21,418 nt of DNA from a virus. The notes under the pieces are model-generated. The model had not been told where the DNA came from. It did no database searches and saw only the letters and a program-made list of their open reading frames with translations. This document shows positions 3 to 10,582 of the stretch, one piece after another; position 1 is the first letter of the stretch; every line of letters begins with the position of its first letter. The translations under genes were made by a program, and so were the position numbers. The DNA lies in IMG/VR virus record IMGVR_UViG_3300037119_000986, positions 1 to 21,418 of that record, one strand, 5' to 3'.

Positions 3-662
3 CATGGAATTTTTCCCATCGTCGGCTGTTCGCCACAGTTGCAGCCGTTGTTCGCCAAATGGCGCGCGGAAAAACGCAACTATATCTATTGGGATCGCGG
101 ATATCTGCGTCGCGTGTTCGCCACTTGGTTGCCGCGCGGAGCGAATGGCGGATATTATCGCTGGCACATCAATGCGTTTCAGATGGAAAGAATTCGCGAT
201 GTGCCCGATGATCGATGGCGCGCGCTCAACATCGCAGGCGAAGTTCGGCCATGGCGTAAGGGCGGCGGCAAGATCGTAATCGCCGACACGCTGCCGGACT
301 ATTGGAACGTGCGCGGACTGCCGGTCGATTGGTCGAAACGGATGGCGGAACATCTGCGCACCAAGACCGATCGGCCGATCGTGGTGCGAGACAAGGAAAG
401 CAAGCGGCCGCTGTACGACGAGATCAAGGACGCACATTGCCTTGTTGCGCACGGTAGCATCGCGGCGGTCGAGGCTGTGGTGATGGGCTGTCCGGTGTTC
501 GTCGAGCAGGAGTCGGCGGCGGCGCTAGTCGGTCGCGTTGGCTTCGACGATATCGAACACCCGGTCTATCCCGAGCGGCAGCAATGGCTGAACTCGCTGG
601 CCTATCATCAGTTCAACGAAATAGAATTGGTGAATGGAACACTGTGGAAGATGATCGAGTGA
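3..662 (+). CDS. Glycosyltransferase-like (GT-B, capsule-synthesis style) protein, 5' end cut by window
   Basis: The frame is open from the first complete codon at position 3, so the true start lies upstream; the TTG at 39 is internal. The 219 visible residues end at TGA 660-662. Near nt 447-506 is the segment AHGSIAAVEAVVMGCPVFVE. This kind of Ser/Gly, helix, Gly-x-Pro-Val motif lines the nucleotide-sugar site in GT-B and capsular polysaccharide transferases. Aromatic and Arg-rich segments (YWDRGY; the C-terminal QQWLNSLAYHQF) recall uncharacterised phage proteins found beside glycosyltransferases. It is the first gene of a six-gene sugar/methyl cassette and lies 4 nt before the GT9-like gene. 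The coding call is strong. The glycosyltransferase call rests on one motif and on context; no donor or acceptor can be read from the sequence. Confidence 0.6.
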   Translation, partial: HGIFPIVGCSPQLQPLFAKWRAEKRNYIYWDRGYLRRVFATWLPRGANGGYYRWHINAFQMERIRDVPDDRWRALNIAGEVRPWRKGGGKIVIADTLPDYWNVRGLPVDWSKRMAEHLRTKTDRPIVVRDKESKRPLYDEIKDAHCLVAHGSIAAVEAVVMGCPVFVEQESAAALVGRVGFDDIEHPVYPERQQWLNSLAYHQFNEIELVNGTLWKMIE

Positions 663-666
663 AATA

Positions 667-1425
667 ATGGGCCGCGGGGATGAGATCATTGGCTCGGGAA
701 TGGCCAAAGGACTGCGCGGCTTCAAGCGGCTTGCGTTCGGGGACTTAAAGCGAATTATTTGGGGGCCGTTTTGTGAGGAAATCTTCAAGAACAACCCACA
801 CATCGCAAGACCGGGTGACGAACGTGCCGCTGATCTTTACTGGATCGACTATTATAGTGGCAGTCGCAAATACAACCGCATGAACCCAGCGCGAACGCGC
901 TGGCTTTGGAATTACGAATTTAAATGTGAGCCCGGCGAGATTTATCTTTCGCCCTACGAAATACAGTTTGCCAAGACAGTTGGCAAAGATTTCATTCTGA
1001 TCGAGCCTAACGTGCCGTGGCACAAATCCGTGGCCGTGAATAAGGATTGGGGCTTGCAGAGATACCAAGCGGTTGCCGATCGGCTGCTGTCGGCCGGCCA
1101 TGACGTCGTGCAATTCAGCCACGGTCGCGATCGATTGCACAACGTGCGAACGATTGCCACGCCAACGTTCCGGCATGCGCTTGCGGCGCTGTCCAAAGCC
1201 AACGCGGCGGTGTTGCCGGAAGGCGGCCTGCACCATGGCGCGGCGGCGCTCGGCGTGCCTGCGGTGGTCATCTTCGGCGGGTTCATTCCGCCGCAGGTCA
1301 CCGGTTACAAGATACACACCAATCTGACCGGCGGCGCGGAAGCGTGCGGTTCTCTAAGCGAGTGCCACCATTGCCGGAAGGCGCTCGACAGGATCAGTGT
1401 CGACGATGTTGTCGGGCGGATATGA
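667..1425 (+). CDS. Glycosyltransferase family 9 (heptosyltransferase-like)
   Basis: This 252-residue protein has the C-terminal GT-B half of the GT9 family. A strand-loop segment FILIEPNVPWHKS (about residues 109-121) is followed by the donor-site signature LPEGGLHHGAAALGVPAVV at about 183-201, then IFGG and a TGY..H.NL tail with CG.....C..C (C227, C233, C236). GT9 enzymes such as the ADP-heptose:LPS transferases move a sugar from a nucleotide donor to lipopolysaccharide. The N-terminus (MGRGDEIIGSG) resembles the GxGDEI first strand-loop of shorter GT9-like phage and alphaproteobacterial proteins, so the gene looks complete although it is shorter than the roughly 340 residues of cellular heptosyltransferases. 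There is no clear Shine-Dalgarno sequence; the start is 4 nt after the previous stop, which suggests coupling. The next gene overlaps at ATGA. Donor and acceptor are unknown. Confidence 0.8.
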   Translation: MGRGDEIIGSGMAKGLRGFKRLAFGDLKRIIWGPFCEEIFKNNPHIARPGDERAADLYWIDYYSGSRKYNRMNPARTRWLWNYEFKCEPGEIYLSPYEIQFAKTVGKDFILIEPNVPWHKSVAVNKDWGLQRYQAVADRLLSAGHDVVQFSHGRDRLHNVRTIATPTFRHALAALSKANAAVLPEGGLHHGAAALGVPAVVIFGGFIPPQVTGYKIHTNLTGGAEACGSLSECHHCRKALDRISVDDVVGRI

Positions 1426-2003
1426 TGCTTGATCCGCGCTACATCAACCGGCCAATTCAAGACGATGCTGAACTAGAAATGTTCGTGCAGTTCGTGCGCG
1501 AGCAAGGAGTCCGGCGCTATCTTGAGGTCGGCGCAAAGTACGGTGGTTCGCTGTGGCATGTCGTGAACGCTATGCCGAAGGGCTCAATCGCAGTTGCAGT
1601 TGATCTGCCATTCACCAGCACGTTCAAGCGTCCAGTGAGTGAACCCTATCTACAACAGACAGTCAGCATGTTGCGGCAGAGTGGCTATGACGCTCATCTT
1701 GTTCTCGGCGACAGCACAAGTTTTGAGGTGATCAACACGGTGAGAAAACACGCCCCGTATGATCTCTGCTTCATCGATGCAAACCACAGCGAACCGTTCG
1801 TGCGGACGGACTGGGCAAATTACGGACCGATGGCGAAGATTGTTGCGTTCCACGACATCTCATTCGATATGAGCCGCAACGAAGGCAAGCTGATGCCGAT
1901 CGACGTGCCCAAGGTTTGGAATGAAATCAAAGCCGACTTCCGGCACCGAGAGATCAGGGCGAGCAAGAAACGTGAGAACGGCTTCGGGATTTTATGGCGC
2001 TGA
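1422..2003 (+). CDS. Class I SAM methyltransferase (Methyltransf_24 type), first paralogue
   Basis: The chosen start, ATG 1422, overlaps the preceding TGA as ATGA and gives 193 residues; an upstream in-frame start would run deep into the GT9 gene. SAM-binding motif I is YLEVGAKYGGSLW (about residues 33-45). The acidic strand CFIDANHSEP (about 116-125) and the later VAFHDI (about 141-146) match the D-x-x-H ... FHD pattern of the Methyltransf_24 / cephalosporin-hydroxylase-like group. These enzymes often methylate sugar or antibiotic hydroxyls. The protein is clearly paralogous to the one encoded at 2602-3150: the blocks around motif I, FIDANH, the NYGPMA segment and the C-terminus NGFGILWR are shared. 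Its last 10 nt overlap the TylF-like gene. A sugar substrate is inferred from the neighbours only. Confidence 0.78.
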   Translation: MMLDPRYINRPIQDDAELEMFVQFVREQGVRRYLEVGAKYGGSLWHVVNAMPKGSIAVAVDLPFTSTFKRPVSEPYLQQTVSMLRQSGYDAHLVLGDSTSFEVINTVRKHAPYDLCFIDANHSEPFVRTDWANYGPMAKIVAFHDISFDMSRNEGKLMPIDVPKVWNEIKADFRHREIRASKKRENGFGILWR

Positions 2004-2605
2004 ACTGGTCGCATCTAGATTGGATACGGCCGTACACGAAATCGTCGCCCGAGCGGTTGGCGGCGATGGCGAAGGCATGTCAGCGGATCGACAATGAAGG
2101 CATCGAGGGCGACATCGTCGAATGCGGCGTCTGGCGTGGCGGCAACATCATCCTTGCGCGGTTCTACTGTCCCGATCGCGTTTGTTGGCTGTTCGATACG
2201 TTCGCTGGCATGGCAAACCCGAGCGTATGGGATTTCAAACGCGGCGGCTTTCGGATGAACATCGGCAAGGCAGCGGTCACGGTCGAGGACGTGACGGAGA
2301 ACTTGCGCACAACAGGAACGCTCGACGAGCGCAAACTACGGTTCGTCGAGGGGCTGGTCGAGAACACGCTGCGCGCCAGCAACCTACCGGAACGGATTGC
2401 GTTGCTGCGGCTCGATACCGATTGGTACGAGTCGACCAAGATTGAGCTAGAGGTTTTATGGCCGAAGGTCGTGCCCGGCGGCATCATGATCGTCGACGAC
2501 TATGGCCATTGGCTCGGCGCGCGCAAAGCGGTGGACGAATACTTCAAGGGCGACGTGCAGTTCGAACGCATCGACTACACGGCCGTCTTGACGGTGAAAC
2601 AATGA
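1994..2605 (+). CDS. TylF/MycF-type O-methyltransferase
   Basis: This 203-residue protein has the TylF (macrocin O-methyltransferase) layout. Motif I is VECGVWRGGN (residues 42-51), followed by LFDTFAGM (about 66-73), the metal/substrate segment LRLDTDWYEST (about 138-148), and PGGIMIVDDYGHW (about 161-173) with the paired aspartates that hold the divalent metal in this family. TylF enzymes methylate a hydroxyl on a 6-deoxysugar. The family also appears in phage and bacterial surface-polysaccharide clusters. Start ATG 1994 lies inside the last codons of the upstream methyltransferase (10-nt overlap), and its stop overlaps the next ATG (ATGA). It is therefore sandwiched between two paralogous methyltransferases. 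Substrate is unknown; a sugar hydroxyl is the natural inference. Confidence 0.82.
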   Translation: MALNWSHLDWIRPYTKSSPERLAAMAKACQRIDNEGIEGDIVECGVWRGGNIILARFYCPDRVCWLFDTFAGMANPSVWDFKRGGFRMNIGKAAVTVEDVTENLRTTGTLDERKLRFVEGLVENTLRASNLPERIALLRLDTDWYESTKIELEVLWPKVVPGGIMIVDDYGHWLGARKAVDEYFKGDVQFERIDYTAVLTVKQ

Positions 2606-3150
2606 TCAAGGCCAAGAGCGGCGCGCTGCAAAACCCGGCTGAACTGGTCGAGTTCCTGCGCATGGTTCGGCGTGAGGAAATTCGCAGCTATCTTGAGATC
2701 GGATCGAAGTTCGGCGGCTCGCTGTGGGCGGTCACGATCGCAATGCAGCCACACTCGCGCGCCGTTGCGGTCGATCTGGAAGGCCGTGCCGAACTAAAAG
2801 AATGCGTCAGCAGATTGCAGAACCTTGGTCACGAAGTTCACTTGTGGGTCGGCGATAGCTGTGATCCGAAGATCGTCGAGTCGGTGTGGTTGCTTGCGCC
2901 CTACGATCTTGTGCTGATCGACGCGAACCATACCGAGCCATACGTCAGGATGGACTGGCTCAACTATGGTCCGATGGCGCGCATCGTCGCGTTCCATGAC
3001 ATCGGGTACGACTTAGGCGATCGGCCGGTTCCGACGTGGAAGATCGAAGTGCCGAAAGTCTGGAACGAAATCAAGCAGGGCTACCGGCACGAAGAGATCA
3101 AGCTAGACCCAACCAAGCGCGATAACGGCTTCGGGATTCTGTGGCGCTAG
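2602..3150 (+). CDS. Class I SAM methyltransferase (Methyltransf_24 type), second paralogue
   Basis: Start ATG 2602 overlaps the TylF stop as ATGA and gives 182 residues. Longer in-frame starts lie inside the TylF-like gene and are not credible. Motifs follow the paralogue at 1422-2003: YLEIGSKFGGSLW (motif I), LIDANHTEPYVRMDW, NYGPMARIVAFHDI and the C-terminus RDNGFGILWR. It lacks some of the N-terminal and mid-protein sequence of the first copy and is 11 residues shorter. Its last 10 nt overlap the following GTG-started glycosyltransferase, exactly as the first copy overlaps TylF. Differences outside the motifs suggest divergence to a different substrate or position, rather than a recent copy. 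Function beyond SAM-dependent methyl transfer cannot be stated. Confidence 0.78.
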   Translation: MIKAKSGALQNPAELVEFLRMVRREEIRSYLEIGSKFGGSLWAVTIAMQPHSRAVAVDLEGRAELKECVSRLQNLGHEVHLWVGDSCDPKIVESVWLLAPYDLVLIDANHTEPYVRMDWLNYGPMARIVAFHDIGYDLGDRPVPTWKIEVPKVWNEIKQGYRHEEIKLDPTKRDNGFGILWR

Positions 3151-3833
3151 TTGTTTGCACGTGGTTGTGGGGCGAGAAATACACGCCGACCTACGTGGAG
3201 CGGTTGCACGCGGGCTTGCGAAAGCATCTCAAGCAGCCGTTTCGCTTTCTGTGCATAACGGAAAGCGATCGCATCGCGCATCTCTCAAACGGGATCGAGC
3301 GTCATGGCATCCAAGATACGTCGCTCACGGCAATCAAAGGATGCTTTGCTCGGCTCCGCATGTTTGATCCCGCATGGCAATCACAACACGACATCACCGA
3401 TCGTCTCGTCTGTCTGGACTTGGATGTTGTTCTCACCGGGCCGCTCGATCCGTTGTTTGATAGACCCGAGGCATTGGTGGTTCTGCAAGGTGCTAATGCC
3501 GCAAATCCGTGCCCGTATAACTGCTCGGTCATGATGCTGCGCAAGAACGCGCATCCCGAACTGTGGACCGACTTCAAGCTTGATCAGCTAAAACATATCC
3601 CATGCCATGAGTTTCCTGATGATCAGGGTTGGCTCTGGTATCGCGCACCGAAGTTGGCTGGTTGGCAGGTCGGAGCGCGCAGCGGCATCTATGCGTTTCA
3701 AAAACCGGGCTGGCCGCCCGGTAAAGATGGCTTGCCGTCCGACGCGCGCCTCGTTTCGTTCATCGGTTGGCGCGATCCAAACACGTTCACAAAACTGCCA
3801 TGGGTCCGGCAGCATTGGTTAGGAGGCAACTGA
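3141..3833 (+). CDS. Glycosyltransferase, GT-A fold (GT8-like, DxD)
   Basis: This 230-residue protein starts at GTG 3141, inside the last 10 nt of the upstream methyltransferase. The N-terminus (ALVVCTWLWGEKY, then FRFLCITE) is the first strand of a nucleotide-diphospho-sugar transferase. CLDLDVVLTGPLDPLF contains the metal-binding DxD (D93, D95). NCSVMMLRKN corresponds to the strand that usually reads N-S-G-x-M/L, and FPDDQGWLW to the D-D-Q-x-W segment. The C-terminal SFIGWRDPN sits where related enzymes carry a His-Gly...Lys-Pro element, so the last donor-contact motif is altered. It probably transfers a hexose or similar sugar in the cytoplasm, using the same pathway as the preceding transferases. 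It ends 1 nt before the next gene, which has its own strong AGGAGG at 3821-3826. Confidence 0.8.
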   Translation: MALVVCTWLWGEKYTPTYVERLHAGLRKHLKQPFRFLCITESDRIAHLSNGIERHGIQDTSLTAIKGCFARLRMFDPAWQSQHDITDRLVCLDLDVVLTGPLDPLFDRPEALVVLQGANAANPCPYNCSVMMLRKNAHPELWTDFKLDQLKHIPCHEFPDDQGWLWYRAPKLAGWQVGARSGIYAFQKPGWPPGKDGLPSDARLVSFIGWRDPNTFTKLPWVRQHWLGGN

Positions 3834-3834
3834 A

Positions 3835-4254
3835 ATGTCTAATGCCGTATATCCTTTCTACAAGCAATCCATTCTGAATGCCGACGCCAACGTCTCGTTG
3901 AGCGTCGACACGACTACCGATGGGCCGTTCTGCTCGCTTATCGATACGGGCACGACGGCATACAATTCTTCGCACCAATTCTTCAGTTCCATGGCCTCTG
4001 CCGCTATTGGCACAGATCAGCGGATCACCGCGCCAACGGTCACGGTCGGCACGTTGGACGGCAGCGATCTGACGTACACGGCAGTTTCGGGGGCAAGCGT
4101 CGAGGCGCTGGTCATCTATCGGCATAATTCCGGTGCCAACACGACGTGGCGGCTGGTGCTGTACATGGATACGTCGGTCACAGGGTTGCCGGTTACTCCG
4201 AACGGGGGAAACATAACTATTACTTGGTCTGGGTCTGGCATATTTACCATTTAA
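3835..4254 (+). CDS. Small conserved phage protein, probable virion component
   Basis: The ATG at 3835 is preceded by a perfect AGGAGG at 3821-3826 (8-nt spacing), by far the strongest ribosome site so far, so this gene is likely made in high amount. The 139 residues are Ser/Thr/Gly/Ala-rich and beta-stranded, with no membrane segment. The middle and end (AVSGASVEALVIYRH, then GLPVTPNGGNITITW and GIF at the C-terminus) match the pattern of a widespread small phage protein, usually unnamed, whose N-terminus reads Y.FYK...L....V.L.VD. It is normally encoded among head or tail genes. A minor virion or decoration role is plausible. The sugar cassette ends immediately before it and structural-style genes follow. 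The exact function is unknown. Confidence 0.65.
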   Translation: MSNAVYPFYKQSILNADANVSLSVDTTTDGPFCSLIDTGTTAYNSSHQFFSSMASAAIGTDQRITAPTVTVGTLDGSDLTYTAVSGASVEALVIYRHNSGANTTWRLVLYMDTSVTGLPVTPNGGNITITWSGSGIFTI

Positions 4255-6089: not shown

Positions 6090-6715
6090 TGGCAACGTAT
6101 CGCTTCTATGTCGCCAGGACAATAGGCGATGGCCTGTCAAGGGCTACGGCATTTCGTTCCAAGCTGTATGAGTATCTTGTTAACGACGGCACGCAGGACT
6201 TCTGGTCCTGGTCTAATCGCGCGTGGCCAAGGCAATTCTGTCTTGCTTTTTGCGACACCACGCTTCACGCGACGATGGCGGCCGACCCTGACATTGTTGC
6301 ACTCTCGCCGGAATTGGCTGATGTGCCTGCGGTTTCGACATGGCTAGATGGTCCCGTTGGCACGTTACCGGCAGGCATTGTTACTGCTCTGGAGAATGGA
6401 GGCATCCCGGTCGATTGGGTTGACGGCACGACGACCCGTCGTCAGCTCTGGCGATTTGTTTCTGGGTGGCATTTTATAGTGCAGCGGTTCTCCGGTTCGG
6501 GCGATGTAGATGGATTCGCGTTCATGCAGCGCAATCTTGATAACACTGTCAGTCAGGTTCCGGTGGGGGCACGCAATCGCATCTCGGCGTGGATGACTGC
6601 CAACGGCATTGATTCAAGCTGGATTGTCGGGGCCACACCAGTTCGTGCTGTTGTCAGGTTCATTCTTGTTAATGGCAATTTCCCGATCATGGGTCACGGC
6701 CCGGTTAGCTTCTAA
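6089..6715 (+). CDS. Uncharacterised phage protein
   Basis: ATG 6089 overlaps the last base of the upstream TGA (TGATG; a TTG at 6086 is an alternative), and the stop overlaps the next ATG as TAATG. The 208 residues begin MATYRFYVARTIGDGLSRAT, continue with an aromatic-rich segment (FWSWSNRAWPRQFCLAFC) and a helix-turn stretch about alanines and prolines (SPELADVPAVSTWLDG). They end with NGIDSSWIVGATPVRAVVRF. I recall phage proteins with the same opening (MATYR.YV...IGDGL...TAFR) but no assigned role. Trp/Phe content suggests a compact globular domain. Tight overlap with the beta-helix gene and the long repeat gene makes a shared structure or a chaperone for them a reasonable guess, no more. 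Confidence 0.6.
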   Translation: MATYRFYVARTIGDGLSRATAFRSKLYEYLVNDGTQDFWSWSNRAWPRQFCLAFCDTTLHATMAADPDIVALSPELADVPAVSTWLDGPVGTLPAGIVTALENGGIPVDWVDGTTTRRQLWRFVSGWHFIVQRFSGSGDVDGFAFMQRNLDNTVSQVPVGARNRISAWMTANGIDSSWIVGATPVRAVVRFILVNGNFPIMGHGPVSF

Positions 6716-8421
6716 TGACCGACGCAACCGACAATTTTAACCGGGCGTCCATCGGCGCCAACTGGACGATGGGGATTAACTCCATCGTCATATCCGCGTC
6801 TACTATCGTCAAGGGTGGTACGGCATCCGACGAAAATACCGCTTGGTGGAATGCCAACACGTTCCCAAGCAATCACTACTCCCAGTGTACGATTGCCACG
6901 GACACTGACGGCGGCGGTTGCGCCGTTCGTTACCAATCCGGCGCTAATACTTTTTATACGTTCTATGGTTCGACGGGAGGAACCGGCGGGACGCTATTCG
7001 AGGTCACTGGCGGCTCATTTGCCGCATTGGGTGCCGACTATAGCATAGACGTAGCCGTCAACGACACTATCAAACTGGACGCTACGGGGTCAACACTCAC
7101 CCCATCTTTCAACGGCGTTGCACAGGCTACCCGCACCGACGCATCGATTACCGGCGGTAGTCCGGGACTACATATTTTCGGTACCGCCACAGCTTTCGAT
7201 AACTGGCTTGGTGGGCCGATTTCGGCAAGCGCCTTATCCGCGACGGCCACGCAAAGCCTCTCGATAGGGCAAAGCGCACCGGCTGCAGCCGCGGTCAAAG
7301 GCACGGCGACGCAATCGCTCGGGATCGGACAGAGTGTGGCTGCCGCGGTGCTTGTCGCAGCACTCGCGGCGCAAAGCCTCGGGATAGGGCAGTCGGTCCC
7401 GGCCAAGGTGCAGGTTGCCGGCACGGCAACGCAGTCGCTTTCGATCGGGCAGAGCGCACCCGCGACCGTGGCTGTTGCTGGTGCGGCGGCGCAGTCGCTT
7501 TCGATCGGGCAAACAGCGACGGTTGTGCCGACGTCGATCTCGGCGACGGCCACACAATCCCTGACCATTGCGCAGACGGTCGCGGCTACGGTCACGGTCA
7601 AGAGCGCGGCGGCGCAAGGGCTCGGGATCGGACAGACGGTCGCGGCTACGGTCACGGTCAAGAGCGCGGCGGCGCAAGGGCTCGGGATCGGACAGACGGT
7701 CGCGGCTACGGCACTCGTCGCAGGTACCGCGACGCAATCGCTTTCGATCGGCCAGTTCGCCACGACGGACGGCGCACAAACCCTAAGCATCGGCCAGTCT
7801 GCTGCGACTACGGTGCTCGTTGCCGGCACGGCAACGCAAAGCCTCGCGATCGGGCAGACTGCAAATATAGGCGCCGTCCCTGTCCAGGGCTCGGCGGCAC
7901 AGTCGCTCGCGATCGGGCAGAGTTCGCCGGCGACCGTGCTCGTCGCGGGTGTCGCGGCGCAAAGTCTGGTCATCGGGCAGAGCGCACCGGCTACGGCGCT
8001 GGTCGCTGCAACGGCTGCGCAATCCCTGACCTTCACGCAGACCGCGCCGGTCGTCGTGACAGTCACATTCGCGCTAACACCGGGGCTGTATACGGACGCT
8101 GACGCCTTCTTCTCGCCGACCGTGTTGTCGGTCAAACCGCTATCGCCGACGGCGTTCTCGGATGCGGATATATTCTTCTCGCCGATCATATCGGTGCTCA
8201 ATAATCTGTTGCCAACCACGTTCGTCGATCTCGACACGTTCCATAATCCAATCATTGGCACGCTCAACGATCGGCATCTGTTCGCCGAACACTTCGAAGA
8301 CGTGGATATGTTCTTCGTTCCGCACATCCGAGGCGGCAACATGGGAGTGATCCCAAGGCGGGAATGGTACGAGCAAGCGACGCCACGGTCATCGATAACG
8401 CCATCCGTTCCGAGGTCTTAA
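6715..8421 (+). CDS. Large repeat protein: lectin-like domain, 14 x ~20-residue repeats, 4 x 22-residue repeats
   Basis: ATG 6715 overlaps the previous stop; the product has 568 residues. Residues 1-170 begin with TDNFNRASIGANWT and end DNWLGGP, a beta-sandwich of the LamG/concanavalin type as found in carbohydrate-binding phage proteins. Residues 176-453 are fourteen units of the form A[TA]Q-S-L-x-IGQ-x-x-A... spaced 20 residues (15-21 in a few). Residues 454 to about 540 hold four 22-residue units centred on D-x-D-x-F-(F/H)-x-P. The last ~25 residues are charged (RREWYEQ). The protein has no signal peptide. The array would make an elongated, Ser/Thr/Gln-rich shaft. The gene abuts the head-tail adaptor gene. 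A virion fibre or minor tail protein is my inference. The Ser/Thr-rich shaft would also suit glycosylation by the upstream enzymes, but nothing in the sequence proves that. Confidence 0.7.
   Translation: MTDATDNFNRASIGANWTMGINSIVISASTIVKGGTASDENTAWWNANTFPSNHYSQCTIATDTDGGGCAVRYQSGANTFYTFYGSTGGTGGTLFEVTGGSFAALGADYSIDVAVNDTIKLDATGSTLTPSFNGVAQATRTDASITGGSPGLHIFGTATAFDNWLGGPISASALSATATQSLSIGQSAPAAAAVKGTATQSLGIGQSVAAAVLVAALAAQSLGIGQSVPAKVQVAGTATQSLSIGQSAPATVAVAGAAAQSLSIGQTATVVPTSISATATQSLTIAQTVAATVTVKSAAAQGLGIGQTVAATVTVKSAAAQGLGIGQTVAATALVAGTATQSLSIGQFATTDGAQTLSIGQSAATTVLVAGTATQSLAIGQTANIGAVPVQGSAAQSLAIGQSSPATVLVAGVAAQSLVIGQSAPATALVAATAAQSLTFTQTAPVVVTVTFALTPGLYTDADAFFSPTVLSVKPLSPTAFSDADIFFSPIISVLNNLLPTTFVDLDTFHNPIIGTLNDRHLFAEHFEDVDMFFVPHIRGGNMGVIPRREWYEQATPRSSITPSVPRS
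7240..8073 (+). repeat. In-frame tandem array, about 60-bp unit, 14 copies
   Basis: The unit encodes about 20 residues of the pattern A(T/A)QSLxIGQ followed by a variable Ala/Val/Thr-rich half. Most units are exactly 60 bp; the fifth and eleventh are 63 bp, the ninth 45 bp and the tenth 57 bp. Copies have diverged at synonymous and variable positions, so the array is old, apart from one very recent duplication (see the entry at 7573). Confidence 0.92.
7573..7711 (+). repeat. Perfect 60-bp tandem duplication inside the array
   Basis: Bases 7573-7632 and 7633-7692 are identical over all 60 positions, and a third partial copy continues to 7711. Both encode QTVAATVTVKSAAAQGLGIG. Such identity, against diverged flanking units, shows recent slippage or unequal exchange and predicts length variation between relatives or within a population. 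Confidence 0.93.
8074..8331 (+). repeat. Four 66-bp coding repeats with D-x-D-x-F core
   Basis: Units start at 8074, 8140, 8206 and 8272. They encode 22-residue repeats with cores DADAFFSP, DADIFFSP, DLDTFHNP and DVDMFFVP, each followed by two or three aliphatic residues. The DNA is well diverged but the spacing is exact. The acidic pair repeated in register could bind metal or form a beta stack; similar units occur in other phage tail proteins. Confidence 0.85.
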
Positions 8422-9048
8422 ATGCCGAGCCCATATCGCACAGACATCATCATGCCCGGCCTGTCGATTGACTTGACCGTGCTCGCGACCGTCAAAACAG
8501 AATTGGGAATCACAGACACGGCAAGCGATGCATTGCTGCAAAGCAAGATCACGCAATCGTCGGCCGCGATCGCGTCGGCGTGCGGCCGCGTGTTCCAGAA
8601 GGAAACCGTCGCCGATCATTTCAATCTCGAATGGAACTCGTGTGTCGGCGGCTTGACCCTGTCCCGGTATCCGGTTGAGGAAATCGTGTCGGTAACGGAA
8701 GGAACACAGATGTTGACGGGCTCCGACTATCAGTTTCAAAGCAGCAACGGCCTGTTGTACCGGCTGCAGAGCAACATGCGGTCGATTTGGCAGGGCGGGC
8801 AGATCGTTGTTACCTACGCCGCCGGCTACGAACTGTTGGAGACCTTGCCGCACGATCTTGAGCAAGCCTGCATCATCCTCGTAAAGCAGCAGTACTACAG
8901 CCAGACGCGCGACCCGTTGATCAAGGGCATCACCATTCCCGGCGTCTCAACATACGAGTACTGGGTCGGCAGCGTTGGGCAAGGCGGCGGCATGCCGCCC
9001 GAGGTGCAAAGCTTGCTGGCCGGCTACAAGGATTTGGTCGCGGTATGA
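8422..9048 (+). CDS. Head-tail connector (adaptor) protein, HK97 gp6-like
   Basis: The 208-residue product starts at ATG 8422 directly after the preceding TAA; an internal ATG at 8452 (MPGLSIDLTVL) fits the family start slightly better and cannot be excluded. The helical N-terminal half LATVKTELGITDTASD, ALLQSKITQSSAAIASACGR is the signature of the gp6-like / YqbG family. It is followed by LTLSRYPVEEIVSV, the SDYQFQSSNGLLYRL segment and IVVTYAAGYE, then a helix LPHDLEQACIILVKQQYYS. Such proteins form a ring under the portal and join head to tail. It overlaps the next gene by ATGA. It opens the conserved connector block, so the portal and capsid genes should lie upstream of this window, displaced by the accessory cassette. 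Confidence 0.88.
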   Translation: MPSPYRTDIIMPGLSIDLTVLATVKTELGITDTASDALLQSKITQSSAAIASACGRVFQKETVADHFNLEWNSCVGGLTLSRYPVEEIVSVTEGTQMLTGSDYQFQSSNGLLYRLQSNMRSIWQGGQIVVTYAAGYELLETLPHDLEQACIILVKQQYYSQTRDPLIKGITIPGVSTYEYWVGSVGQGGGMPPEVQSLLAGYKDLVAV

Positions 9049-9419
9049 CGCCGACGCAGATCAAAGCCGACTATCGTGCCCATCTCGCGGCGACCGGCGA
9101 GACGATCACGATCCGCCGCTATACCGGCACCGGCACCAACCGCCCGCGGATCGACCGCACCGTGCTCGCCCGCGTCACCGGATACGGGCCGACCGAGCTT
9201 GTGGGAACTATCAATCAGGGCGACCGCCGCGTCATCGCCTTGGCCGACGATATCACGCAGCCGACCACCGACAGCCCGCCGCAGACGCTGACGCTGCCGA
9301 TTACGACGTCGGACAAGATTGTGCTGCGCGGCAAGGAACTGCAAATCATCGCCAGCGATGATTCAACCCGGCGCGTCGCAGGCGTGCTGATCGCGCTCGA
9401 AATACAGGCCCGTGGTTAG
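9045..9419 (+). CDS. Probable head-closure (stopper) protein
   Basis: The 124-residue product overlaps the adaptor gene at ATGA. It has the small beta-barrel style of stopper/head-closure proteins: TITIRRYTGTGTNRP, VLARVTGYGPTELVGTINQG, DRRVIALADDI and the closing DKIVLRGKELQIIASDD. Its position between a gp6-like adaptor and a gp10-like protein is where SPP1 gp16-like stoppers and equivalents sit. These proteins plug the portal channel before the tail joins. Sequence similarity to named stoppers is not evident by eye, so the call depends on synteny and fold style. The stop is overlapped by the next gene (8 nt). Confidence 0.65.
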   Translation: MTPTQIKADYRAHLAATGETITIRRYTGTGTNRPRIDRTVLARVTGYGPTELVGTINQGDRRVIALADDITQPTTDSPPQTLTLPITTSDKIVLRGKELQIIASDDSTRRVAGVLIALEIQARG

Positions 9420-9984
9420 CTGGAAAGATCAGGCGGCCATTGTGGTCGGCTCCGGTCCAAGCGCAGCCCAGACCCCCTTAGAACTCGCCATGGGCAGGGC
9501 GCGGGTCGTGGCCGTCAACGAGTCCTGGCGACTCGCCCCGTGGGCGGATGTCCTGTTCGCAATGGATGGCGTGTGGTGGGTCGACAATGGCGGCGTGCCG
9601 CAGTTCGCCGGGCGGCGGGTGACGGCGTCACCTCATGCCACCGAAATGTTCGGTCTCGATTGCTTCAGTTCCAACGGCGCGACGAGCGGCTTGCGGGCTA
9701 TCTATCTGGCCGAAAGGCTGGGAGCCAAGCCGATCTTGCTGGTCGGCTTCGAAATGCATTCGGGCAACGGCGTGCACTGGCATCCGCCGCATAGCACTCG
9801 CGTCGGGCTTCGCAATCCCGGCGAAAACGAAATGAAGATTTGGCGGGATGACGTCGAGCGGGTTGCCGACAAGTTCGCCGCGCGCGGAACCGTAATTCTG
9901 AACTGCACGCCGGGTTCGGCGCTGACGTGTTTCCCGCATGTGCCTTTTGAGCAGGCGCTGGATGGCTGTCACCGTCCGCGTTGA
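9412..9984 (+). CDS. Rossmann-like MptE/DUF115-type protein, accessory gene in the connector block
   Basis: GTG 9412 overlaps the stopper gene by 8 nt; 190 residues. The N-terminus AAIVVGSGPSAAQTPLEL has the G-x-G-P-S nucleotide or sugar-nucleotide turn (G12, G14) of the DUF115 / 6-hydroxymethylpterin diphosphokinase MptE-like group. The middle has SSNGATSGLRAIYLAERLGA and KPILLVGFEMHSGNGVHWH, with a His-rich loop. The C-terminus NCTPGSALTCFP is shared with many unnamed phage proteins of this type. In bacteria, DUF115 members such as Maf/FlaA1-like motility accessory factors transfer nonulosonate sugars to proteins. The substrate here is unknown. Placement among assembly genes is unusual and suggests a late role, possibly glycan-related like the cassette at 3-3833. 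Confidence 0.65.
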   Translation: MVSWKDQAAIVVGSGPSAAQTPLELAMGRARVVAVNESWRLAPWADVLFAMDGVWWVDNGGVPQFAGRRVTASPHATEMFGLDCFSSNGATSGLRAIYLAERLGAKPILLVGFEMHSGNGVHWHPPHSTRVGLRNPGENEMKIWRDDVERVADKFAARGTVILNCTPGSALTCFPHVPFEQALDGCHRPR

Positions 9985-10582
9985 ATCGGTCGCCAAGGAC
10001 ATCGACGTTCTCGTCGGTGGCCTTAAAGGCCAAGACGCTTCGGAACTGCTCGCCGAATTTGCCGCCGCTGAAATCGAGGATGCAAAGGCCACCAATGCCG
10101 GCGTGCTCGGCCGCGTGCCGCCTTACAAGGTATTCGTCGACGGCAAGCAAGGCGCCCCGCTGCAGTCGGTCCGGCCGGATGGAGTCATCGTTGCCGACTT
10201 CCAATTGGTCTCGGATGTTCTGATCTGGATTTCGCAACAGTTGGCGATGTTCTCGCCGGTCAAGACCGGGACTTATAAACGTTCACACGTTCTGTTCGCC
10301 GATGGCGTTGAGGCGGACCCGACTGCCGTCGTTCCAGCCGCCGCAGAATACGTGTTCATGAATAGCGTGCCGTATGCGCGCAAGGTTGAGCGCGGATCGT
10401 CGTCGCAAGCACCAAACGGCGTTTATGAAGCCGTGTCCGTATTAGCGCGGCAGCGGTTCAAAAATCTTGCGCGTATCACTTACGGTTTCCGCACAGCAAT
10501 GAGCGGGTCACTAATCCGCGGCAGTCAAGGCGATCGTGCATCTAACCGCAACCCCGCAATCATCGTGAGAACAGATGCCTAG
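9962..10582 (+). CDS. HK97 gp10-like tail completion / minor tail protein
   Basis: ATG 9962 gives 206 residues; a farther upstream ATG (9938) would extend the overlap with the MptE-like gene to 47 nt and adds a Cys/Arg-rich leader of poor quality. The family features are visible in order: helical N-terminal region with LLAEFAAAEIEDAKA, FQLVSDVLIWISQQLAMFSPVKTG, the TYKRSHVLFADG turn, and YVFMNSVPYARKVE. HK97 gp10-like proteins sit at the head-tail joint or tail end and help tail completion. It overlaps the next gene by 8 nt. The C-terminus contains a basic, disordered-looking stretch (SLIRGSQGDRASNRNP). No special regulation is seen. Confidence 0.82.
   Translation: MAVTVRVESVAKDIDVLVGGLKGQDASELLAEFAAAEIEDAKATNAGVLGRVPPYKVFVDGKQGAPLQSVRPDGVIVADFQLVSDVLIWISQQLAMFSPVKTGTYKRSHVLFADGVEADPTAVVPAAAEYVFMNSVPYARKVERGSSSQAPNGVYEAVSVLARQRFKNLARITYGFRTAMSGSLIRGSQGDRASNRNPAIIVRTDA

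Follow-up and report, generated by a model that had tools for sequence, protein, structure and literature searches.

A cassette of glycosyltransferase and methyltransferase genes that recurs among phage head genes probably decorates a virion protein with an O-methylated glycan

Few phages, most of them mycobacteriophages, have been shown to carry glycosylated virion proteins. In phages Che8 and Rita, glycans are present on the major capsid protein (PMC11256854), and in mycobacteriophages they have been found at the C-termini of capsid and tail-tube proteins (PMC12619734). In phage Corndog, an O-methyltransferase and three sugar transferases are encoded between the portal and protease genes, and modification of the capsid has been proposed (PMC4351075). 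Here we describe a cassette of overlapping glycosyltransferase and methyltransferase genes of a soil phage, which fills positions 3-3833 of a 21.4 kb fragment of an IMG/VR virus record (IMGVR_UViG_3300037119_000986; this whole fragment is referred to below as the window). Results of our analysis indicate that it probably represents a mobile, modular cassette, whose products attach an O-methylated glycan to a protein of the virion.

The presence of phage-encoded glycosyltransferases and methyltransferases beside virion genes makes the cassette, by analogy, a putative system of the Che8 and Corndog kind, which is built from mostly different enzymes. The similarity to gp35-gp38 of Corndog (cluster O), compared by description only, concerns the location of O-methyltransferase and glycosyltransferase genes inside the head block, while Corndog has only four such genes and an actinobacterial host. 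Phage Che8 encodes its own glycosyltransferases (gp108-gp110), like the cassette phages, and has a glycosylated major capsid protein. A TylF-like domain of Che8 gp108 is related to the product of gene g4 of the window (28% identity, E-value 3e-11). However, the Che8 genes are located at the right genome end, outside the head block, their transferases are of the GT2 and GT25 types, and the profiles of g1, g2, g6, Methyltransf_24 (MT24) and the sialyltransferase-like (sia) protein gave no match to gp108-gp110 at E 0.01.

A homologous gene row is present in Tetraselmis viridis virus S20, a marine phage, in which sialyltransferase-like, glycosyltransferase and methyltransferase genes and a g6 homolog lie between head-protein and head-closure genes. 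This row has been annotated gene by gene and not as a cassette; it differs from the cassette in that its g6 homolog is 29% identical and that neither GT9 nor g1 has a match in the region. Caulobacter phages of the Dolichocephalovirinae (C1 and others) encode sia, g1-, GT8- and GT9-related proteins and an FkbM methyltransferase in one row, but they are jumbo phages with no match to g6 or MT24 in this region. The row of C1 (L011, 4340-8870) is annotated mostly as hypothetical. In the open-licence PubMed Central literature we found no described cassette of this kind, which is weak evidence of its absence.

The six genes of the window (g1-g6, Table 1) are on the same strand, and their junctions are either overlaps or gaps of up to 4 nucleotides (nt). 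Overlaps of 4 nt join g2 to g3 (1422-1425) and g4 to g5, and overlaps of 10 nt join g3 to g4 and g5 to g6, while 4 nt separate g1 from g2 and 1 nt separates g6 from the gene at 3835. An initial annotation of the window had proposed a six-gene overlapping cassette of these families, which runs into virion genes of the same strand. The coordinates, the Pfam and PHROG matches and the folds agree with this proposal, although the cassette turned out to be larger than reported, and downstream of it the same strand encodes an adaptor, a head closure protein, a tail terminator (10575), a tail tube protein (11024) and a tape-measure protein (12389). The assignment of the cassette to glycan transfer and methylation, also proposed initially, is well supported by the families, folds, conserved residues and synteny.

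Table 1. Genes of the cassette and associated features in the window.
Feature	Predicted product	Position	Strand	Match
g1	GT-B glycosyltransferase with KpsC/WbbB-like fold, outside named families, 5' truncated at window edge	3..662	+	
g2	GT9-superfamily glycosyltransferase	667..1425	+	Pfam Glyco_transf_9, 1.7e-7
g3	Methyltransf_24-type O-methyltransferase, paralog of g5	1422..2003	+	Pfam, 1.4e-7
g4	TylF-type sugar O-methyltransferase	1994..2605	+	Pfam TylF, 7.8e-41
g5	Methyltransf_24 / RMNT_CmcI-like O-methyltransferase	2602..3150	+	Pfam, 2e-8 and 1.6e-6
g6	GT-A glycosyltransferase, invariant DLD	3141..3833	+	phrog_1962, 1.9e-15
sia (second locus, connector block)	Sialyltransferase-like protein	9412..9984	+	phrog_4603, 9.6e-41
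Outside cassette	Head-tail adaptor	8422-9048	+	phrog_442, 1.6e-31
Outside cassette	Head closure	9045-9419	+	phrog_161, 1.3e-7
Outside cassette	Neck/tail completion	9938-10582	+	phrog_169, 7e-9

A nucleotide search against isolate phages gave no match. In the protein profile scans of IMG/VR, the best 80 of 147 (g1), 148 (g6), 323 (GT9) and 129 (MT24) relatives were kept per profile, and the hits, merged and dereplicated together with the window, gave 136 non-redundant contigs; the counts obtained from this survey are lower bounds and are biased toward close relatives of the query. These genes co-occur in related phages: 125 of the 136 contigs contain three or more of them, with only two hits on the opposite strand. 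Typically, sia comes first and is followed by GT8-like, GT9, methyltransferase(s), GT-A (g6) and GT-B (g1). This order is conserved for the five core genes in 66 of the 77 contigs that hold all five, and the methyltransferases usually number from one to three per cassette.

The products of g1, g2, g5 and g6 are identical in 85, 79, 89 and 87% of residues, respectively, to those of a 67 kb relative, IMGVR_UViG_3300044699_000032 (L004). The ratios of nonsynonymous to synonymous substitution rates (dN/dS) between these genes of the window and L004 are in the range of 0.13-0.18, which indicates that all four are kept for function, under purifying selection. Such ratios, together with the recurrence of the gene set in the same order in many contigs, argue against a chance assemblage. 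Between g2 and g5, where the window has g3 and g4, L004 encodes another methyltransferase and another transferase; the cassette is thus modular. Upstream of g1 it contains GT8-like, sialyltransferase-like, collagen-like and portal genes, the first two of which are additional cassette genes; hence, the cassette of the window probably starts outside the window. The portal gene (889-2312) and g6 (8540-9222) of L004 are split across frames, probably by assembly errors or recent frameshifts, and its collagen-like protein (2273-3208), which has a weak CBM_5_12 match, adjoins the portal gene. A g1-like fragment (L014, 11999-12217) at the far end of the 67 kb relative contig may belong to another cassette or result from sequences joined during assembly.

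Where both neighbours were recognised, in a tally that drew on virion profiles only, the cassette lies between the adaptor and closure genes in 18 contigs, between collagen-like and adaptor genes in 11, between the major capsid protein (MCP) and portal genes in 10, and between a few other head/neck pairs. Virion genes were recognised on both sides in 16 of the 20 contigs with at least 6 kb on each side of the cassette; in the remaining four, head genes border it on one side or both. While most carriers encode an HK97-type portal related to that of PAJU2, others encode portals of phrog_145 (L047, L059, and L073) or phrog_21 (L138 and L170) and have their own head genes around the cassette, so that the carrier phages span at least three portal families. 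Rhizobium phage RHph_X2_26, with related MCP, portal, adaptor, closure and neck proteins, has none of the cassette genes, and its adaptor gene adjoins the closure gene. A scan of GTDB with g1 revealed five loci, in Bradyrhizobium sp. URHD0069, Mesorhizobium sp. CA8, M. jarvisii LMG 28313, and two metagenome-assembled genomes (Hyphomonadaceae and Phenylobacterium). In both Mesorhizobium loci, the whole cassette is located between the MCP and portal genes. Judging by these loci, the cassette occurs in prophages of Mesorhizobium, Bradyrhizobium and relatives. Since the recurring cassette is almost always found among head-building genes, decoration of the virion appears to be its most likely function.

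Among the glycosyltransferases, the product of g1 has no match to any Pfam or PHROG family. Its complete ortholog in L004 (269 aa) was modelled with AlphaFold2 as a GT-B protein with a predicted local distance difference test (pLDDT) score of 88. In a structure search, this model matched retaining beta-3-deoxy-D-manno-oct-2-ulosonic acid (Kdo) transferases with Z scores of 8.9-11.8 over 208-238 residues, and the top 14 rows by Z (9.0-11.8) were exclusively KpsC, WbbB or KrkA. Retaining beta-Kdo transferases are defined by the QXXXD nucleophile motif and the HP motif that binds cytidine monophosphate (CMP) (PMC12887879, PMC10148158). The g1 protein resembles KpsC (GT107), WbbB (GT99) and KrkA (GT140) in the modified GT-B fold overall, but it has no sequence similarity to them, and neither motif is conserved. 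When placed by hand according to secondary structure, the post-strand position equivalent to that of QXXXD is occupied by Q in 0 of 26 sequences, by D in 14 and by T in 11, and R-X-K-E is present in 25 of 26 where (K/R)XHP would be expected. The fold had suggested CMP-Kdo as the donor, and the motif check gave no support to this candidate. Because the QXXXD and HP motifs are not conserved, the g1 protein, which according to the model shares the Kdo-transferase fold, is not classed here as a Kdo transferase. Searches of PDB sequences with the g1 and sia profiles gave no useful match.

The match of g2 to Glyco_transf_9 (31.2 bits vs. a cut-off of 22) covers the C-terminal half of the profile only. 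The g2 profile matches the ADP-heptose lipopolysaccharide (LPS) heptosyltransferase II structure 1psw (1.1e-6), and GxGD and EGGxxHxAAA are invariant motifs of the g2 family. Against the LPS heptosyltransferase I and II equivalog models, g2 scores 19 bits, far below the cut-offs of 134.6 and 185.3. The argument of the initial annotation that GT9 enzymes act on LPS therefore carries little weight here. The g6 protein matches no Pfam family at E 0.1, and hence not Glyco_transf_8, but its AlphaFold2 model (pLDDT 93) is clearly of the GT-A fold. Its 331 Foldseek matches at E<0.001 are led by LARGE1, GT6 and glycogenin and include LgtC, with E-values of about 1e-8 for these four, and DLD is invariant in the sequences of 22 relatives. 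The structure searches thus placed g1 and g6 among glycosyltransferases (GT-B and GT-A, respectively).

The paralogous methyltransferases g3 and g5 (51% identity) flank g4. Both match Methyltransf_24 (32.7 and 35.5 bits, respectively, with a cut-off of 26.3), while only g5 exceeds the RMNT_CmcI cut-off of 23.2 (28.4 bits vs. 15.6 bits of g3). The invariant motifs of the g5 family are IDxxH and FHDI. The TylF assignment of g4 (140.5 bits vs. a cut-off of 23) is accompanied by matches to the sugar O-methyltransferases NovP (4.9e-23) and MycE (5e-18). The aspartate motifs LRxDxDxYEST and VDDY of g4, whose aspartates we take to be metal ligands, align with those of NovP, and LDxDWY and VDDY are invariant in the family.

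The window contains no sugar-nucleotide synthesis gene, as stated initially. This does not hold for all carriers, as 3 of 24 long relatives have genes of NAD-dependent epimerases/dehydratases within the cassette or close to its upstream end: one between g6 and g1 in L277, one between GT8 and GT9 in L279 (GalE-like), and several just upstream in L278. No NTP-transferase genes were found in the 24 long relatives. The presence of epimerases in three of them and of NTP-transferases in none links the cassette to nucleotide sugars and suggests that most carriers use donors of their hosts. No cassette protein contains a 19-residue segment with a mean hydropathy above 1.67, i.e., a predicted membrane segment, and the enzymes are thus probably soluble.

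As to the acceptor, the initial annotation pointed to Ser/Thr-rich virion proteins encoded just downstream. The proteins encoded at 3835 and 4770 are indeed rich in Ser/Thr (27-28%), but among the contigs surveyed only 2 and 4, respectively, encode relatives of them, and both proteins are known from many isolate phages outside the lineage. They are not conserved with the cassette and were dropped as candidates. A different possibility is that glycosylation of the virion is the right explanation while the acceptor is a collagen-like protein or repeat fibre encoded beside the cassette, rather than the capsid. Of the 47 contigs that have both the portal gene and the cassette, 32 contain a collagen-like gene, and repeat-rich proteins flank the cassette in the window (6715-8421) and in L008. 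However, the GXY repeats of the collagen-like proteins contain few Ser/Thr (about 2% Ser), cassettes occur also in phages with quite different head modules, and the collagen-like gene may simply belong to the head module. We therefore rejected the collagen-like protein as a universal acceptor, and regard an acceptor of the collagen or fibre type as improbable, though it deserves consideration. Our best guess is a capsid or neck protein, since such proteins are common in kind to all carriers. The repeat-rich protein of the window contains QSLxIGQSAxA in 60-bp tandem units (repeat core 7573-7755), and that of L008 (1099-2583) is GAG-rich.

Explanations in which the virion is not the target were also considered. 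In one of them, the host surface (LPS or capsule) is edited late in infection, which would keep progeny and debris from re-adsorbing, as superinfection exclusion or a release aid. The initial annotation had proposed action on the host surface, for superinfection exclusion, as the alternative to decoration of the virion. The hosts are Gram-negative, and enzymes with GT9 and KpsC-like folds typically work on surface polysaccharides. Relatives of g2 include LPS heptosyltransferases, and g1 shares its fold with Kdo transferases of capsule and O-antigen. On the other hand, the cassette includes no gene of a membrane-bound priming enzyme, flippase, polymerase or lipid carrier, and its proteins lack predicted membrane segments. 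Phage genes for surface conversion are usually found outside the head block, while the cassette stays within head genes across unrelated head modules. Owing to this persistent head/neck position, the lack of predicted membrane segments and the match to the kind of system shown in Che8 and proposed for Corndog, we favour the virion as the target, and editing of the host surface is unlikely. It is very unlikely that the cassette serves lysogenic conversion, with its expression in the prophage altering the surface or metabolites of the lysogen. Chromosomal contigs of Mesorhizobium and Bradyrhizobium do contain full cassettes, but lysogenic-conversion genes are usually located at prophage ends and have their own promoters, while the cassette genes are co-directional and overlapping inside the head operon and are not enriched in promoter-like sites. 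The glycosylation of modified bases of phage DNA (hypermodification) seems the least probable, with hardly any likelihood left to it. The ability of phage glycosyltransferases to modify DNA is mentioned in PMC12619734 with reference to Pyle et al. 2024. However, the cassette is located in the head block and not among replication genes, its TylF and MT24 methyltransferases are of small-molecule or sugar types and not DNA methylases, and no base-modification genes were noticed, with no systematic search made for them.

Several observations weigh against decoration of the virion as well. The position of a gene does not prove the action of its product on the virion. No one acceptor family is common to every cassette phage, and the C-termini of the MCPs are not rich in Ser/Thr, which is at odds with a mere replica of the C-terminal glycosylation reported in mycobacteriophages. 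In addition, the row of Caulobacter phage C1 adjoins a large tail-like gene and a lysozyme gene, not head genes.

If the virion is decorated, the six genes of the window would constitute most of a cassette for a short O-methylated glycan, and the enzymes would be made late, together with the head and neck proteins. Being soluble, they would draw nucleotide sugars from the host, which in some relatives may be altered by a phage epimerase. The sugars would be transferred stepwise, in the cytoplasm, onto a protein of the virion, for which the capsid or another head/neck protein is the most likely candidate, and methyl groups would cap the hydroxyls of the glycan. With methyltransferase and glycosyltransferase genes swapped among relatives, even closely related phages would expose different glycans. 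The enzymatic activities, the single product glycan, its acceptor and its purpose, i.e., shielding or tuning of the particle surface, are what we infer from the gene content and its position.

We tentatively propose, with somewhat less than even confidence, a broader interpretation, in which the cassette is an unnamed, widespread virion-decoration island of Alphaproteobacteria phages. Such an island would be transferred as a unit across unrelated head modules, into the head block, and its enzymes would be re-shuffled to yield different methylated glycans; they would include a new GT-B family that uses the scaffold of Kdo transferases with a different donor. With well over 100 phage contigs containing the conserved cassette, glycosylation of virions would be common rather than exotic. 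Culturable rhizobial prophages would offer tractable genetics, and new glycosyltransferases and sugar O-methyltransferases could be obtained from such cassettes. The matter bears also on the variation of surface chemistry in phages outside animals, where evasion of antibodies cannot explain it.

The window contains a second locus related to the cassette. Homologs of its sialyltransferase-like gene, located in the connector block (Table 1), are the first genes of complete cassettes in relatives. In PAJU2 (L281), the sia-like gene (7738-8346) is the only one of the set, and it lies between the closure and neck genes. The same location, between head closure and neck, is occupied by the phrog_4603 gene of the window, which is homologous to pmgO/pmgP of P1. 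A homolog of phrog_4603 is encoded also by PAJU2-like Pseudomonas phages without the remaining cassette, which makes it a widespread, as yet unexplained gene of the connector region.

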